Below are positions 57,341-62,251 of a DNA stretch of 64,000 nucleotides, piece by piece. The translations under genes and the position numbers were made by a program. The first letter of the stretch is position 1. Each line of letters starts with the position of its first letter. This DNA is from Sulfurihydrogenibium azorense Az-Fu1 (GTDB lineage Bacteria > Aquificota > Aquificia > Aquificales > Hydrogenothermaceae). The stretch lies in contig NC_012438.1 in NCBI RefSeq assembly GCF_000021545.1, positions 1,424,003 to 1,488,002 of the forward strand, given 5' to 3'. The notes beneath the pieces are model-generated. The model ran no database searches and was not told the origin of the DNA. It saw only the letters and a list, made by a program, of their open reading frames with translations.

Positions 57341-57523
57341 TCAGGATTTTTTCTTCAACTTACTTCCAAGAAGTAATCTACCCTCTTTTTCTTGCATACA
57401 AGATTTATAGGCACACATTCTACAGAGTATATCGTTTGGATTGTATCCTTTGGAATAACCGGAGGATATAACCTCCTCCGGTAGATTTTCTATCTCTTTT
57501 TCTAAATCTTCTTTTTTTATCAT
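57341..57523 (-). CDS. Small Cys-containing protein coupled to nrdA
   Basis: A 60-residue protein with acidic N-terminal half (MIKKEDLEKEIENLPEEVIS) and a C-terminal basic tail. Three Cys form C34-x2-C37-x4-C42 (ILCRMCAYKSCMQEK), which could bind a metal or an Fe-S cluster or act as a thiol pair. The ATG lies 3 bases after the nrdA stop, with no separate ribosome site, so translation must be coupled. Its coding DNA contains a perfect 9-bp inverted repeat at 57458-57482. No family is recognised; a role with ribonucleotide reductase is inferred only from position. Confidence 0.65.
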   Translation of the reverse strand: MIKKEDLEKEIENLPEEVISSGYSKGYNPNDILCRMCAYKSCMQEKEGRLLLGSKLKKKS

Positions 57524-57526
57524 TAT

Positions 57527-60500
57527 CTATTCACAACTTGGACATATTTTTGCAAGTAATGGGTCTGTTGGACAGCCTTCTATATTGCCGCTTTTTACAG
57601 CATCTACAACTTCATCTCCGTACTTTTCCCTTGCCTGTCTTTCAATCTCCTCAAGCTCTTTTTCTAACTCTTTATCGTTCCTTTTTGCAAGTCCAAAACC
57701 TCTTCTTTCTCCACGTTTATTGACATTCAGTGTGTATTTTTCGCCTTTAACTGTCTTGTCTATAAAGCAGTAGTAAGTGGATTTTAAACCTTTTTCCCAT
57801 GCGTACATATATATATCTTCCATCTTGTCTCTTAAATCTTCTTCAATGTATAAAGATTTAGATACAGCTTGGTCTATGTACTCTTGAAATGCAGCTGCTA
57901 TGTCTATCTGTCTGTAAGGTGATACTTCGTAAGCCGTTTTGTATAGAGATTTGTCTATCTTACCGTCCAACTCTTCTATATACTGAATACTTCCTTGGTG
58001 AGCTTTTATCTTTTCTGCTAACTCTTCAGACCATAATCCTTTTTCTTCTAACTCTTTCATCAGTGGTTTGTTTATCACTATAAACTTTCCTGACAGTGTG
58101 TCCCTTGAGAATATGTTAGAGAAGTAATTATCTATACTTGAAGATGTACCAGCTATTATTGATATGGAAGCTGTTGGTGCAACTGCTAGTAAAACAGCGT
58201 TTCTTCTTGGTGGGTAGTTGTAGTTTGCTTCGTAGTAGTGAGGGAATGCTCCCCTTTCTTTTGCTAACTCCTCAGATTTTGCGTAAGTTACCTCTCTCAT
58301 AAACTTAGCTATCTTTCTTGCTGTTTCAACTGCTTTATCACTGTCGTAAGGAATGCCTAACTTTATTAGTGCTTCGTGGAATCCCATAACACCTATACCG
58401 ATAGGTCTTAAATCCATAGTATTCTTTCTTGATTCTTCTGATGGATAGAAGTTTTTATCAAGGATGTTGTCTAAAGCTACTACCATAGTTTCTAATGTAT
58501 CTTTTAGCTTATCCCAATCAAAATCAGATTTATCTTCTTTTACATGTCTTGCTAAATTAACAGATGCCAAAGTACAAACTGCAGTACTCTCTGGAGAGTT
58601 TGGAATCGAAATCTCTGTACATAAGTTAGAAGAGTTTATAACACTATACTGTGGGCAAGGGTTTTTTTCGTTGTGTCTGTCCTTAAATGTAAGCCAAGGA
58701 TGTCCCGTTTTTGCAAGTTTAAATAGGTACTTTTTATAAAAGTCTCTACTATCTATCTTTTTCCAGAGTTTTAATTCTCCTTTCTCTGCCTTTTCTATAC
58801 AACTTTCATACTCTTTTTTAAACTCTTCTCCCCAAGCTGTAACTAACTTTGGACATTCTGCTGGGTCAAATAGGTAAATAGGTTCTCCTTCTTTTATTCT
58901 TCTCATAAGTTCATCTGGCATCCAGAGAGCAGTATTGAGAGAAGGTGTTCTAAAGTAAGGGTTTCCTGTAGTTTCTCTCAAATCTAAGAATGCTTCTACA
59001 TCTAAATGCCAAGGTTGTAGGTACATAACTTGGGAGCTTCTTCTTCTACCACCTTGCTGAATTGCGTTAACTATAGTATCAAAGATTTTTATAAACGGTA
59101 TTATTCCTGATGATTTTGCGTTAAGGGAGTGTATCTTTGAGCCTGTTGCTCTTATTCTTGTTACGTCTGTTCCTACTCCTCCTGCGTATTTTGCTAAAAA
59201 CGCCGTTTCTTTTGCTTTATCCATAATAGACTCTAAAGAGTCATCGATGACGTTGACATAGCAGTTATGTGCCGCAACTAAGTTAGCTGCAAAGCTATGG
59301 TCTCCTTTTACTTCAAAATCATAAACAGTTCCATCAAAAATTTCTTTTTCCACCTTTGTTATTTTATAAAAAACAACATCCTTGTATTTAAATCTATAAC
59401 TGTTTATTTTAGTTTTATCTGGTTTTGCCGTTATTTTATGAGTATCTTTGTTTATAAGTCTTATTAAATCTTCACTATCATTTATGGATATGTAAACAGA
59501 ATAAGGGTCTTCTGTTGCAAGATGATTTTTTGAGGCTTTTGATATTCTAGGTAAACTTCCTATTCTTAACAAGATGTGGAATATTTGGTAAATAAGAGAT
59601 TTATTTGATAGTGTAAGTCTATATCCATCTTTCACAGCTGTAGCATCTCCTCTAAATAAACCTACTATTAACCCTTTCTGAACCTCAGGATGTGCAAGCA
59701 TTATCTCCGGAGGAAGGATTTTCTTATTAAATCCGGTTCCTACTAAATTTTTAATAAATTGGGATAGATACGTGCTGTTTAGAGTAATTCTTACTGAATT
59801 ATCCTTATTATGTGCTACAGTTGGATTGATATCAAAAAGTTTTTTACTTAAAGAGATAACATCTTCAATAAACTCCTTATCTTTAACTCCAAAAGTAAAC
59901 ACAGTAGAAAGTTTATTTCCAGATTTATTAATATAACCTTCAGCAAGATAATAACCTAAAAATCTCATAAAATCATAATCAATTTTTATCTTACTTTTAA
60001 CTTTGTTTATTTGACCGTTAAATTCTGGAGTTCTCTTTTGTTTATCATGATTTATCTTGTGTATGTATCCATCCTTCTCTACTAAGTAAGGGTTATCAAT
60101 GTAATCTAAGATATTTAGCTCAACTTTTTCACTTATACCTTTTGGGTATGGGATAACTATGTAATCTCCAGCTTCTATATCTTTTGCTTCAACCCATTTT
60201 AAATTTTCTAACAAGTTAGTTTCAACTTCTTCACATATATAAGCGTACTGTCTCTTAACAGGATAACATTTTTCAGTATTTTGATAAGGAGGACAGACTT
60301 TAACAAATTTTCTATCACACTCTACATCTTCTTTTTTTAAAACTAAAAATCTGTGGTCATCTGTTGCTTTTACAGTTTCCTCTCTACCCCATAATCCCCA
60401 AACATAAAGTTTGTAAAGTTCTCTTTGATACTTTCTACTGAATAAACCTGAAACAACTTTATAGTTTCCTTCAGCTGTAAGAACAACATCCCCAATTTTA

Positions 60501-61195
60501 ACATCTTCTATATTCTTTACTCCATCTATTGTTATAACAGGTGTTCCTGCAGGGAAACATGAGCTGTACTGGTTTGTAAGGGTTCCTGAGTTAAAGAGGG
60601 TTGGTGTTGAGTGTAGGTACTCAAGATTTGAAAGTTTGTTGTAAATCTTTATTATCTCATCTTCTGTGTTGCCTATTCCCATAGCAACTCTCATAAAGAA
60701 CCACTGGGGCTTTTCTATTGTCTCAAAGTCTCTATCTTTCATTAGGTATCTATCTTTTAATGTAGAAAGACCAAAGTAATCAAGATTGTAATCCCTTGAG
60801 TAATCTATGGATTTTTCTAATCTATCTATATCAAACTGTAATAACTCTGGTTTTAAAAGTTTCTCTTCTACGGCATAGTTTATATAGTCTTTAAAAGAGT
60901 TAAACCTTCTATCTATTCTTCTGTTTATTATCTTTAAAAGCTGCCTTGTTGCAAGTGTATCGTATATGTAATTTTTTGGTATAAGGTGCTCTATGGCTTT
61001 TAATACAAGGTAATCAAGCTCTTCTGTTGTAACCTTTTCCGGGATTTTTAAATCAAGTTCCTTTGCAACTTTAAACACTATCTCGTAATCATCAGGTAGC
61101 TCCAATCCTTCTAAAAGTGCGAAAATAGCATCTACAAGTTTTTTCATCTGAAACTTTTCTACACTTCCATCCCTCTTAACAACTATTCTTTGCAT
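57527..61195 (-). CDS. nrdA: Ribonucleoside-diphosphate reductase alpha subunit with intein
   Basis: A 1222-residue precursor: 790 residues of class I ribonucleotide reductase large subunit interrupted by a 432-residue intein (residues 213-644). The extein has an N-terminal ATP cone (about 1-90), HSTPTLFNSGTL, the redox-active Cys restored after splicing in QYSS|CYVNV (C645), the radical site SNLCTEISIPNS with Asn, Cys and Glu, the second redox Cys in STAVCTLASVNLA, a Tyr-Tyr pair in STYYCFIDK and the C-terminal dithiol CPSC in KICPSCE. It reduces ribonucleoside diphosphates with NrdB. It is 12 bases downstream of nrdB and is followed by a small Cys protein gene. ATG at 61195 with AAGGAGG upstream. 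Confidence 0.95.
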   Translation of the reverse strand: MQRIVVKRDGSVEKFQMKKLVDAIFALLEGLELPDDYEIVFKVAKELDLKIPEKVTTEELDYLVLKAIEHLIPKNYIYDTLATRQLLKIINRRIDRRFNSFKDYINYAVEEKLLKPELLQFDIDRLEKSIDYSRDYNLDYFGLSTLKDRYLMKDRDFETIEKPQWFFMRVAMGIGNTEDEIIKIYNKLSNLEYLHSTPTLFNSGTLTNQYSSCFPAGTPVITIDGVKNIEDVKIGDVVLTAEGNYKVVSGLFSRKYQRELYKLYVWGLWGREETVKATDDHRFLVLKKEDVECDRKFVKVCPPYQNTEKCYPVKRQYAYICEEVETNLLENLKWVEAKDIEAGDYIVIPYPKGISEKVELNILDYIDNPYLVEKDGYIHKINHDKQKRTPEFNGQINKVKSKIKIDYDFMRFLGYYLAEGYINKSGNKLSTVFTFGVKDKEFIEDVISLSKKLFDINPTVAHNKDNSVRITLNSTYLSQFIKNLVGTGFNKKILPPEIMLAHPEVQKGLIVGLFRGDATAVKDGYRLTLSNKSLIYQIFHILLRIGSLPRISKASKNHLATEDPYSVYISINDSEDLIRLINKDTHKITAKPDKTKINSYRFKYKDVVFYKITKVEKEIFDGTVYDFEVKGDHSFAANLVAAHNCYVNVIDDSLESIMDKAKETAFLAKYAGGVGTDVTRIRATGSKIHSLNAKSSGIIPFIKIFDTIVNAIQQGGRRRSSQVMYLQPWHLDVEAFLDLRETTGNPYFRTPSLNTALWMPDELMRRIKEGEPIYLFDPAECPKLVTAWGEEFKKEYESCIEKAEKGELKLWKKIDSRDFYKKYLFKLAKTGHPWLTFKDRHNEKNPCPQYSVINSSNLCTEISIPNSPESTAVCTLASVNLARHVKEDKSDFDWDKLKDTLETMVVALDNILDKNFYPSEESRKNTMDLRPIGIGVMGFHEALIKLGIPYDSDKAVETARKIAKFMREVTYAKSEELAKERGAFPHYYEANYNYPPRRNAVLLAVAPTASISIIAGTSSSIDNYFSNIFSRDTLSGKFIVINKPLMKELEEKGLWSEELAEKIKAHQGSIQYIEELDGKIDKSLYKTAYEVSPYRQIDIAAAFQEYIDQAVSKSLYIEEDLRDKMEDIYMYAWEKGLKSTYYCFIDKTVKGEKYTLNVNKRGERRGFGLAKRNDKELEKELEEIERQAREKYGDEVVDAVKSGNIEGCPTDPLLAKICPSCE
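59264..60559 (-). mobile_element. Intein in NrdA with LAGLIDADG homing endonuclease
   Basis: The in-frame insertion runs from the Cys of CFPAGTPVITIDG (block A, codon 60557-60559) to the last Asn of AANLVAAHN (blocks F/G, codon 59264-59266), followed by Cys (+1). Block B appears as ATDDHRFLVL with the conserved His. Two LAGLIDADG helices are visible, FLGYYLAEGYI and LIVGLFRGDAT, with acidic residues, so homing activity may persist. All splicing residues (Cys1, block B His, penultimate His, terminal Asn, Cys+1) are present, so splicing is expected. The insertion point is directly before the redox-active Cys of the reductase. Confidence 0.93.
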
Positions 61196-61207: not shown

Positions 61208-62188
61208 TTAAAAGTTTGTGTACTCTGTAGATGATACTTCAAAGAAGTTTGTTAACTTTTTAACATCTTCCTTTTGTAAGAATTTAAGAGGGTTTTGGTC
61301 TATACCAAACTGAGGGTCAAAGCCAAGTTCTACAAGTCTTCTATCTGCTATGTACTTCATATACCTTTCAAGTTCGTTGTAAGATACTCCAAATATGGTT
61401 GTACCTCCGAACTTTGTTTTTAGGTAGTTAAGTTCAAGCTCTACAGCATCTATAATAGACTGCCTTATGTTTTCAACAAAATTGTAATCATCTACAATCT
61501 CTGGATTCTCCTCTACCATCGTAAGAATGGCTTCTATACCGTTTTGTAGATGTAAAGACTCGTCAATTAGTATAAGCTCTACCCCTGCAACTACGTTTTT
61601 CATCTTTCCTGTGTCTTTCATAGCAAAGAAATGTGCAAAAGCTGAATAGAAAAACAGACCTTCCTGTATGATGTTATTCAAAAGGATAGAGGTAAGTATC
61701 TGTTTTTTTCCTTCTAATGTATCAGGGTCTGCTTTACCGTAAGTTATTCTGTCAACAGCTCTGACTATCAACTCTTGTTTTTCTTTTAAAAGCTTGTCTT
61801 CAAGGGTGATGTTGTAAATTTTTTTCCTATCCATATCGAAAGAGTTAAGGATTATCTCAAAGAAGTCTGAGTGAATGTTTTCCATAAACATCTGAGTTGA
61901 AAAACTCATTTTTGCGTAAGGGTCTGTAAGTACCGGGAAAAATCCATTTCCTAAAACATTTTGAACCAATAACTCTGAAGATGCAAAGTATCCAACTGCA
62001 GAATCAAAAAGGTCTTTTTCTGTAGGAGTTAAAGATTTGTAATCTAACACGTCTTGTTGTATGTTAAGCTCCTCAGGGAACCAAACAGCTTTTTTCTGTT
62101 TTGTATACAGCTCCCTAAAAACTGGATACTTAGGATTTTCTGTAAGTCTGATATTGTCTCTAACTGAAGTTTTACCGATGAGTGCCAT
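61208..62188 (-). CDS. nrdB: Ribonucleoside-diphosphate reductase beta subunit, class Ic-like
   Basis: A 326-residue ferritin-like metal subunit that makes the oxidant for NrdA. Metal ligands by spacing are E72 (in FASSELLVQ), E103 and H106 (MENIHSD), E176 (IIQEGLFF), E210 and H213 (IDESLHLQ). The first ligand is Glu, where class Ia enzymes have Asp (E72 to E103 is 31 residues, as D84 to E115 in E. coli). The position of the radical Tyr, four after H106, is F110. Both changes match the class Ic Mn/Fe type first found in Chlamydia (E89, F127). Length and ending (STEYTNF, interaction tail) are normal. It leads the operon under NrdR boxes. Confidence 0.96.
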   Translation of the reverse strand: MALIGKTSVRDNIRLTENPKYPVFRELYTKQKKAVWFPEELNIQQDVLDYKSLTPTEKDLFDSAVGYFASSELLVQNVLGNGFFPVLTDPYAKMSFSTQMFMENIHSDFFEIILNSFDMDRKKIYNITLEDKLLKEKQELIVRAVDRITYGKADPDTLEGKKQILTSILLNNIIQEGLFFYSAFAHFFAMKDTGKMKNVVAGVELILIDESLHLQNGIEAILTMVEENPEIVDDYNFVENIRQSIIDAVELELNYLKTKFGGTTIFGVSYNELERYMKYIADRRLVELGFDPQFGIDQNPLKFLQKEDVKKLTNFFEVSSTEYTNF

Positions 62189-62197
62189 GATGCACCT

Positions 62198-62213
62198 CCA
62201 CTATATATAGTTT
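62198..62213. promoter_or_regulatory. NrdR box 1 (proximal to nrdB)
   Basis: CCACTATATATAGTTT fits the core CwAtATaTwG exactly at 62201-62210. It lies between the predicted transcription start (near 62216) and the nrdB ribosome site (TGGAGGTG, 62193-62200, which it overlaps by three bases). Confidence 0.8.
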
Positions 62214-62222
62214 GTTTTTATA

Positions 62223-62251
62223 AGTATAACACTACATATAGTGTTTGTCAA
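62223..62251 (-). promoter_or_regulatory. Promoter of the nrdB-nrdA operon
   Basis: On the minus strand the consensus -35 TTGACA (62246-62251) is followed after 17 bp by TATACT (62223-62228), five of six matches. The spacer is occupied by an NrdR box. Confidence 0.8.
62229..62244. promoter_or_regulatory. NrdR box 2 (between -35 and -10)
   Basis: ACACTACATATAGTGT is a near-perfect palindrome matching the NrdR consensus acaCwAtATaTwGtgt at all but one position. It fills the -35/-10 spacer; its centre is 31 bp from that of box 1, about three helical turns, the usual spacing of paired NrdR boxes. Confidence 0.85.

Follow-up and report, generated by a model that had tools for sequence, protein, structure and literature searches.

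A class I ribonucleotide reductase of Sulfurihydrogenibium azorense with the class Ic residue pair, placed outside the class Ic clade in the best trees

Introduction

Class I ribonucleotide reductases (RNRs) are divided into subclasses that take their names from the radical cofactor. A sequence that has not been characterised is allotted to one of these by the pair of residues at two positions of the radical-generating subunit (NrdB or R2). Tyr/Asp indicates classes Ia and Ib, Phe/Glu class Ic and Tyr/Glu class Id (PMC8463856). Second-sphere residues have been tabulated as well, and are Glu and Asp in class Ic, Cys or Ser in class Id and Asp and Asp in the R2s of the phage Cyano SP group (PMC6370689, Table 4). 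Class Ic proteins (R2c) come mostly from extremophiles and pathogens, and a tyrosine, Y222, has been reported as conserved among them (PMC4118035).

The closest described proteins with a resolved structure are C. trachomatis R2c (1syy, 4d8f, 4m1i) and S. erythraea R2 (6y2n; organism named in PMC7467353), which have Glu as the first of six metal ligands and Phe at the position of the radical tyrosine. Among phages, the Cyano SP R2, proposed as class 'If', combines all-Glu ligands with the lack of a radical Tyr, and class O ferritin-like proteins lack this Tyr as well and end just past the radical-transfer Tyr (PMC6370689, PMC9531940), the class O proteins being a published precedent for such a short C-terminal ending (PMC9531940). 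Aquifex aeolicus, from the same phylum as S. azorense, has a class Ia NrdB (NrdBh, 7ail) of the Asp/Tyr type, for which a tyrosyl radical has been measured (PMC8772380). Here we explore an nrdB-nrdA locus of S. azorense Az-Fu1 that passes the class Ic residue-pair test yet falls outside the class Ic clade in the best trees.

Materials and methods

The window is the whole stretch of 64,000 nucleotides that was analysed; the genome is a single contig of 1.64 Mb and is 99.99% complete. Comparison sequences were taken from PDB matches (C. trachomatis 1syy, S. erythraea 6y2n, E. coli 1piy, F. johnsoniae 6cwo, A. aeolicus 7ail and mouse 1h0n) and aligned with NrdB by MAFFT, with all ligands in register. 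The family dataset comprised 78 members, corresponding to 48 distinct sequences of about 69-98% identity from three phyla. Two maximum likelihood (ML) trees with different sampling, hereafter the first and the larger set, were made for NrdB, and a tree was made for NrdA; alternative groupings were compared by AU tests. NrdB was modelled by AlphaFold2 using 51 aligned sequences. An earlier model, for which 25 close relatives had been aligned, scored poorly (pLDDT 64) and was set aside.

Results

The nrdB gene and its residues

NrdB contains the Pfam domain PF00268 (Ribonuc_red_sm, E 1.7e-63), and its best PDB sequence matches are class Ic R2s (E 3e-36 and 3e-33); identity to the R2c of C. trachomatis and S. 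erythraea is about 28-30%. A prior reading made from the sequence only had placed the gene and its length exactly and had given no strand, which is minus (Table 1).

Table 1. Features of the nrdB-nrdA locus, in window positions.
Feature	Positions	Strand	Description
nrdB	61208..62188	-	326 aa; radical-generating subunit of a class I RNR, without the radical tyrosine
Codon of E72	61973..61975	-	First metal ligand (C. trachomatis E89, E. coli D84)
Codon of M102	61883..61885	-	Second-sphere position, Glu in class Ic
Codon of F110	61859..61861	-	Radical-tyrosine position (C. trachomatis F127, E. coli Y122)
I208-D209-E210	61559..61567	-	Ile (Arg in class Ic and most R2s), conserved Asp, metal-ligand Glu
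Y323-T-N-F-stop	61208..61222	-	Radical-transfer tyrosine followed by only three residues
nrdA	57527..61195	-	1222 aa with intein; Pfam PF02867, PF00317, PF03477
NrdA intein	59264..60559	-	432 aa, residues 213-644, LAGLIDADG_3 domain
60-aa ORF	57341..57523	-	CxxCAYKxC, directly 3' of nrdA; third operon gene, Hydrogenothermaceae
Palindrome ACACTATATGTAGTGT	62229..62244	-	NrdR-box-like, upstream of nrdB
Palindrome AAACTATATATAGTGG	62198..62213	-	NrdR-box-like, start-proximal, upstream of nrdB

The MAFFT alignment equates E72, E103, H106, F110, E176, E210 and H213 with C. trachomatis E89, E120, H123, F127, E193, E227 and H230 and with E. coli D84, E115, H118, Y122, E204, E238 and H241. W36, D209 and Y323 correspond to E. 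coli W48, D237 and Y356, and the equivalents of C. trachomatis W51, D226 and Y338 are conserved. The sequence-only reading had singled out E72 and F110, the latter four residues past H106, and had noted that E. coli shows identical spacings, with D84-E115 matching E72-E103 (31) and E204-E238 matching E176-E210 (34). All of this is borne out, and the alignment that it had proposed as a check shows Phe and no Tyr at the radical position. To judge from these residues, a tyrosyl radical at the usual place in NrdB is impossible. That the two changes are published hallmarks of class Ic, as had also been claimed, agrees with the residue-pair criterion (PMC8463856).

The remainder of the class Ic signature is matched in part. 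F110 fits the class Ic pattern of Phe (or Leu, Ile or Val) at the radical-Tyr position, and NrdB has Glu as first ligand in an EEHEEH set. In the second sphere the Asp is present (D209), whereas the Glu (C. trachomatis E119) is replaced by Met (M102), or by Val in two KSB1 relatives; Met or Val plus Asp, together with Glu ligands and Phe, is a combination absent from the published comparison (PMC6370689, Table 4). Ile stands for C. trachomatis R225, while second-sphere Glu and Arg before the Asp occur in all 11 sampled Ic-clade proteins. Y222 is replaced by Leu (L205, 48/48 family members), which is a weak criterion as 2/11 Ic-clade proteins, both of haloarchaeal type, have Phe there. The tail past the radical-transfer Tyr counts 8-10 residues in Ic-clade proteins, where measurable, and three in the family, the complete members of which always end on EYTNF, EYQNF or EYTNY. 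Finally, nrdB precedes nrdA in all family members for which both genes were available, and the order is nrdA-nrdB in Ic-type loci.

Other known R2s share parts of this picture. Those of the eukaryote-type class Ia (mouse 1h0n and Bacteroidota relatives) resemble NrdB in the MENIHS motif, Met in the second sphere and Leu at the Y222 position, and their Bacteroidota loci have nrdB before nrdA, as in the family; they differ in the Asp ligand, the radical Tyr, the Arg before the Asp and a 20-residue tail. Class Id R2s (F. johnsoniae 6cwo, L. blandensis 6sf4) have all-Glu ligands and lack the Arg, like NrdB, but keep the Tyr and have Cys or Ser in the second sphere.

Several assignments can be discarded. 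Classes Ia and Ib need Asp as first ligand and a radical Tyr where NrdB has E72 and F110, and membership of class Id needs Tyr and a Cys/Ser second sphere where it has F110 and M102, the trees rejecting it as well (see below). Class Ie has lost three carboxylate ligands, whereas NrdB keeps all six. R2lox, which has neither a C-terminal radical-transfer Tyr nor an R1 partner, is dismissed since NrdB has the conserved Y323, an adjacent nrdA (in members with flanking sequence) and N171 five residues before E176, a position that we take to be that of the cross-link Tyr of R2lox. Class O consists of an alpha of about 412 aa and a ferritin-like protein of about 240 aa, and Cyano SP has Asp in the second sphere and a minimal phage alpha; the system studied here, in contrast, combines a NrdB of 326 aa with a full NrdA that has an ATP-cone.

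Distribution and invariance of the family

E72, F110, W36, L205, I208 and D209 show no variation in the 48 distinct family members, and all six ligands as well as the radical path are invariant. Its constancy across all 48 sequences indicates that the Phe/Glu pair is under selection and rules out a pseudogene or sequencing error. The E72/F110 pair is fixed in Hydrogenothermaceae, some Bacteroidota and KSB1 relatives. The nearest named relatives are Sulfurihydrogenibium MAGs (96% identity). Close relatives (88-98%) were found in 34/37 Hydrogenothermaceae genomes, whereas NrdBs of other Aquificota families are only 22-33% identical to the S. azorense protein; that of A. aeolicus, at about 28%, falls in a different branch. 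Outside the phylum the family was found in 12 of the 296 genomes sampled from the Bacteroidota group (Fodinibius, Mariniphaga and others) and in two of the 82 from the KSB1 group, both at about 69-74% identity, below which identity falls sharply to about 31%. Such a distribution suggests horizontal transfer. When viral contigs were searched using the family alignment, only two phage proteins emerged, 26% identical and of the Asp/Tyr type. The open-access literature held nothing relevant on the RNR of Sulfurihydrogenibium or Persephonella. The sequence-only reading had called a class Ic signature in a thermophile notable; the surprise is small, given that R2c proteins are mainly from extremophiles and pathogens (PMC4118035).

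Some further R2s were encountered. One genome of the same taxonomic family (G007:C246; L118, L159) has only an E. coli-like Asp/Tyr nrdA-nrdB pair, on a 6.6-kb contig, which is either a replacement or contamination. Another Phe/Glu R2, distinct from that of the family, occurs in a genus of the Aquificaceae (L066, L067, L068; L124 7945-8916). Its very last residue is the radical-transfer Tyr (FFEAKVDY-stop), Trp takes the Y222 position, and the flanks contain no nrdA for about 7 kb in both directions. A tree in which all Phe/Glu R2s, this second Aquificaceae lineage included, are monophyletic was rejected (p-AU 0.0008). Two loci (L100, L107) encode R2s with the Glu ligand and Leu at the radical-Tyr position, and two viral loci (L204, L205) R2s with the Glu ligand and Ile there. 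A Blattabacterium plasmid R2 (L145 563-1636) has the class Id pair Tyr/Glu and branches just outside the Id clade (96/98).

Phylogeny

In both ML trees the NrdB family forms its own branch with 100/100 support and a length of 1.25-1.43, outside the Ic clade. The deep backbone is weak and the neighbour of the family shifts, being on the Id side in the first tree and the eukaryote-type Ia in the second. Union with the eukaryote-type and the related, neighbouring class Ia group gave p-AU 0.54 (larger set), and union with the whole NrdBz clade, which includes class Ic, gave 0.105 (larger set) and 0.234 (first set). Union with the tyrosine-less Ic proteins alone was rejected (p-AU 0.0037, larger set), and so was union with class Id (0.0145, first set; 0.0078, larger set).

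In the NrdA tree the family again has its own 100/100 branch. Union with NrdAz (p-AU 0.40) or with the eukaryote-type (0.54) was not rejected, and union with Id was (8.6e-5). Forcing the family together with only the class Ic alphas was rejected too, which we do not count as evidence since it mainly reflects that Ic alphas interleave with tyrosyl-radical Ia alphas. The sequence-only reading had named grouping with class Id or with tyrosyl-radical class Ia as outcomes that would speak against it; the former is rejected for both subunits, whereas a tree that unites the family with the eukaryote-type class Ia has a fit close to that of the best one (p-AU 0.54). Based on the tests for both subunits class Id is out, and an independent loss of the radical tyrosine in the NrdB family is favoured, although the family may be the sister of the whole NrdBz clade.

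Structure model

The AlphaFold2 model of NrdB has a pLDDT of 89 and a pTM of 0.88, with low confidence for the last 18 residues. As had been proposed as a check, it was compared with C. trachomatis R2, which is the closest solved fold (Z 34.4, 1.9 A, 278 residues), although the underlying alignment is rich in Ic relatives and may bias the fold likeness toward Ic. S. erythraea R2 (33.8), B. halodurans (31.6) and E. coli (30.8) follow, and A. aeolicus (29.5), class Id (28.1) and human R2 (28.0) score lower.

The operon and other RNR genes

nrdA follows nrdB after 12 nt and encodes one ATP-cone, the catalytic NLCTE, TAVCTL, the tyrosine dyad STYYC and a C-terminal CPSCE. The fold of NrdB together with the Tyr dyad, catalytic Cys and C-terminal Cys pair of NrdA identifies a class I RNR. 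In intein-free relatives NrdA has about 800 aa. The intein, which sits immediately ahead of the active-site Cys in QYSS/C, had been noticed before; it is present as claimed but is sporadic rather than a family feature, occurring also in some Persephonella-group loci and lacking in most relatives. The core of the 60-aa ORF, YNPxDxxCxxCAYKxC...GR, is conserved in most Hydrogenothermaceae, has no Pfam match and was not found in the other phyla; its product may assist the RNR as a small protein that binds metal or thiols. In Mariniphaga (L056 5989-12019) nrdB-nrdA is followed by nrdD-nrdG-like genes, placing aerobic and anaerobic RNRs together.

The palindromes ACACTATATGTAGTGT and AAACTATATATAGTGG, spaced at 31 bp, cover the probable promoter of nrdB (TTGACA ... 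TATACT). A core pattern drawn from both has four matches on the two strands (0.33 expected) and occurs nowhere else in the window, although, written from the sites themselves, it is no independent test. What we take to be the general NrdR-type consensus has six matches in the window against 8.5 expected, the two best places being these palindromes. Comparable pairs with a spacing of 30-31 bp occur upstream of nrdB in almost all of the other Hydrogenothermaceae examined, as well as in one KSB1 relative, and NrdR is encoded in the genome. A text search of the literature found no NrdR-box spacing. Going by the known consensus, the palindromes are putative NrdR boxes.

The genome has one class I beta gene and one class II RNR, with no match to class III NrdD. 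The class II RNR (L146 710-3792; G000:C1 near 99665) has 846 aa and lies beside an apparent cobalamin adenosyltransferase gene. A search for manganese importers of the Nramp type (MntH) gave no match.

Discussion

NrdB and NrdA likely form a working class I RNR with a metal-held oxidant, having probably lost the radical tyrosine independently, near the NrdBz and eukaryote-type enzymes. As the radical tyrosine is Phe and the first ligand Glu, the beta subunit would store the oxidising equivalent at its dinuclear metal site, presumably in a high-valent state. The six-ligand site, as read from the alignment, would take up two metals, which O2, peroxide or superoxide would oxidise to a Mn(IV)/Fe(III) or a Mn(IV)/Mn(III) centre. 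By analogy with known enzymes, this centre would take up an electron along a path through W36, D209, H106 and Y323 to the Tyr-Tyr pair and catalytic Cys of NrdA. With three residues after Y323, NrdB would dock on NrdA in its own way, unlike the usual tail peptide. Mn/Fe is the favoured metal pair because the closest characterised tyrosine-less proteins with the same first sphere use it; the main alternative is Mn2, given the identical ligand set of class Id. A lineage separate from class Ic is supported by the long 100/100 branch in both NrdB trees and in the NrdA tree, by the rejected unions with Ic alone and with Id and by the traits in common with eukaryote-type R2s; the union with the whole NrdBz clade, which was not rejected, the weak backbone and the closeness to class Ic in sequence and fold count against it. 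Against this explanation also counts that EEHEEH ligand sets occur with Mn/Fe, with Mn2 and with metals that are unknown.

Were NrdB instead a true class Ic enzyme with Mn(IV)/Fe(III) by descent, either as a diverged member of the Chlamydia and haloarchaeal clade or as its sister, this would account for the Phe/Glu pair, the best PDB matches by sequence and fold and the unions with the whole NrdBz clade and, for NrdA, with NrdAz, which were not rejected. We hold this to be rather unlikely, considering the rejected union with the tyrosine-less Ic proteins alone, the Met for Glu and Ile for Arg replacements, the short tail and the gene order. The class Ic reading stands in part, for the residue pair and the closest solved sequence and fold; a place of the family within Chlamydia-type class Ic is improbable.

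An Id-like mechanism, in which superoxide or peroxide yields a Mn2(IV,III) centre and no protein radical is formed, is unlikely. The all-Glu ligand set is common to both and Id proteins too are without Arg at the R236 position, but they retain Tyr at the radical position and Cys or Ser in the second sphere, and Id unions are rejected for both subunits. Id alphas are also without the ATP-cone present in NrdA (PMC8463856). The lack of a match to an Nramp-type Mn importer in the genome weighs little, as other importers exist.

Very unlikely is a diiron enzyme, with the radical on an alternative Tyr or Trp or with a high-valent Fe2 centre. Y181, five residues past ligand E176, does not vary across the family alignment and would be a candidate, but the corresponding Tyr of Ic and Ia proteins is not their radical, and no R2 is known in which a different tyrosine is the stable radical. 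That NrdB is a non-catalytic, degenerate beta like yeast Rnr4, with the class II enzyme doing the work, is highly improbable in view of its being the sole class I beta, the invariant ligands and radical path, the complete catalytic motifs of NrdA and the conserved NrdR-like boxes.

That the family is a further class I RNR subclass is a tentative and somewhat doubtful reading. Such a subclass would have lost the Tyr independently of Chlamydia-type enzymes, would be peculiar in its second sphere, in the way it is activated and in how its tail docks, and might use a metal pair so far unseen as RNR oxidant in such a setting. If this reading is true, Phe/Glu would be a convergent solution and the 'class Ic signature' alone would not identify class Ic. 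The three-residue tail challenges the idea that a class I beta needs a ten-residue peptide for binding alpha. The family tests whether Glu and Phe alone force a Mn/Fe oxidant, and its thermophilic source makes proteins that are stable enough for EPR and crystallography likely.
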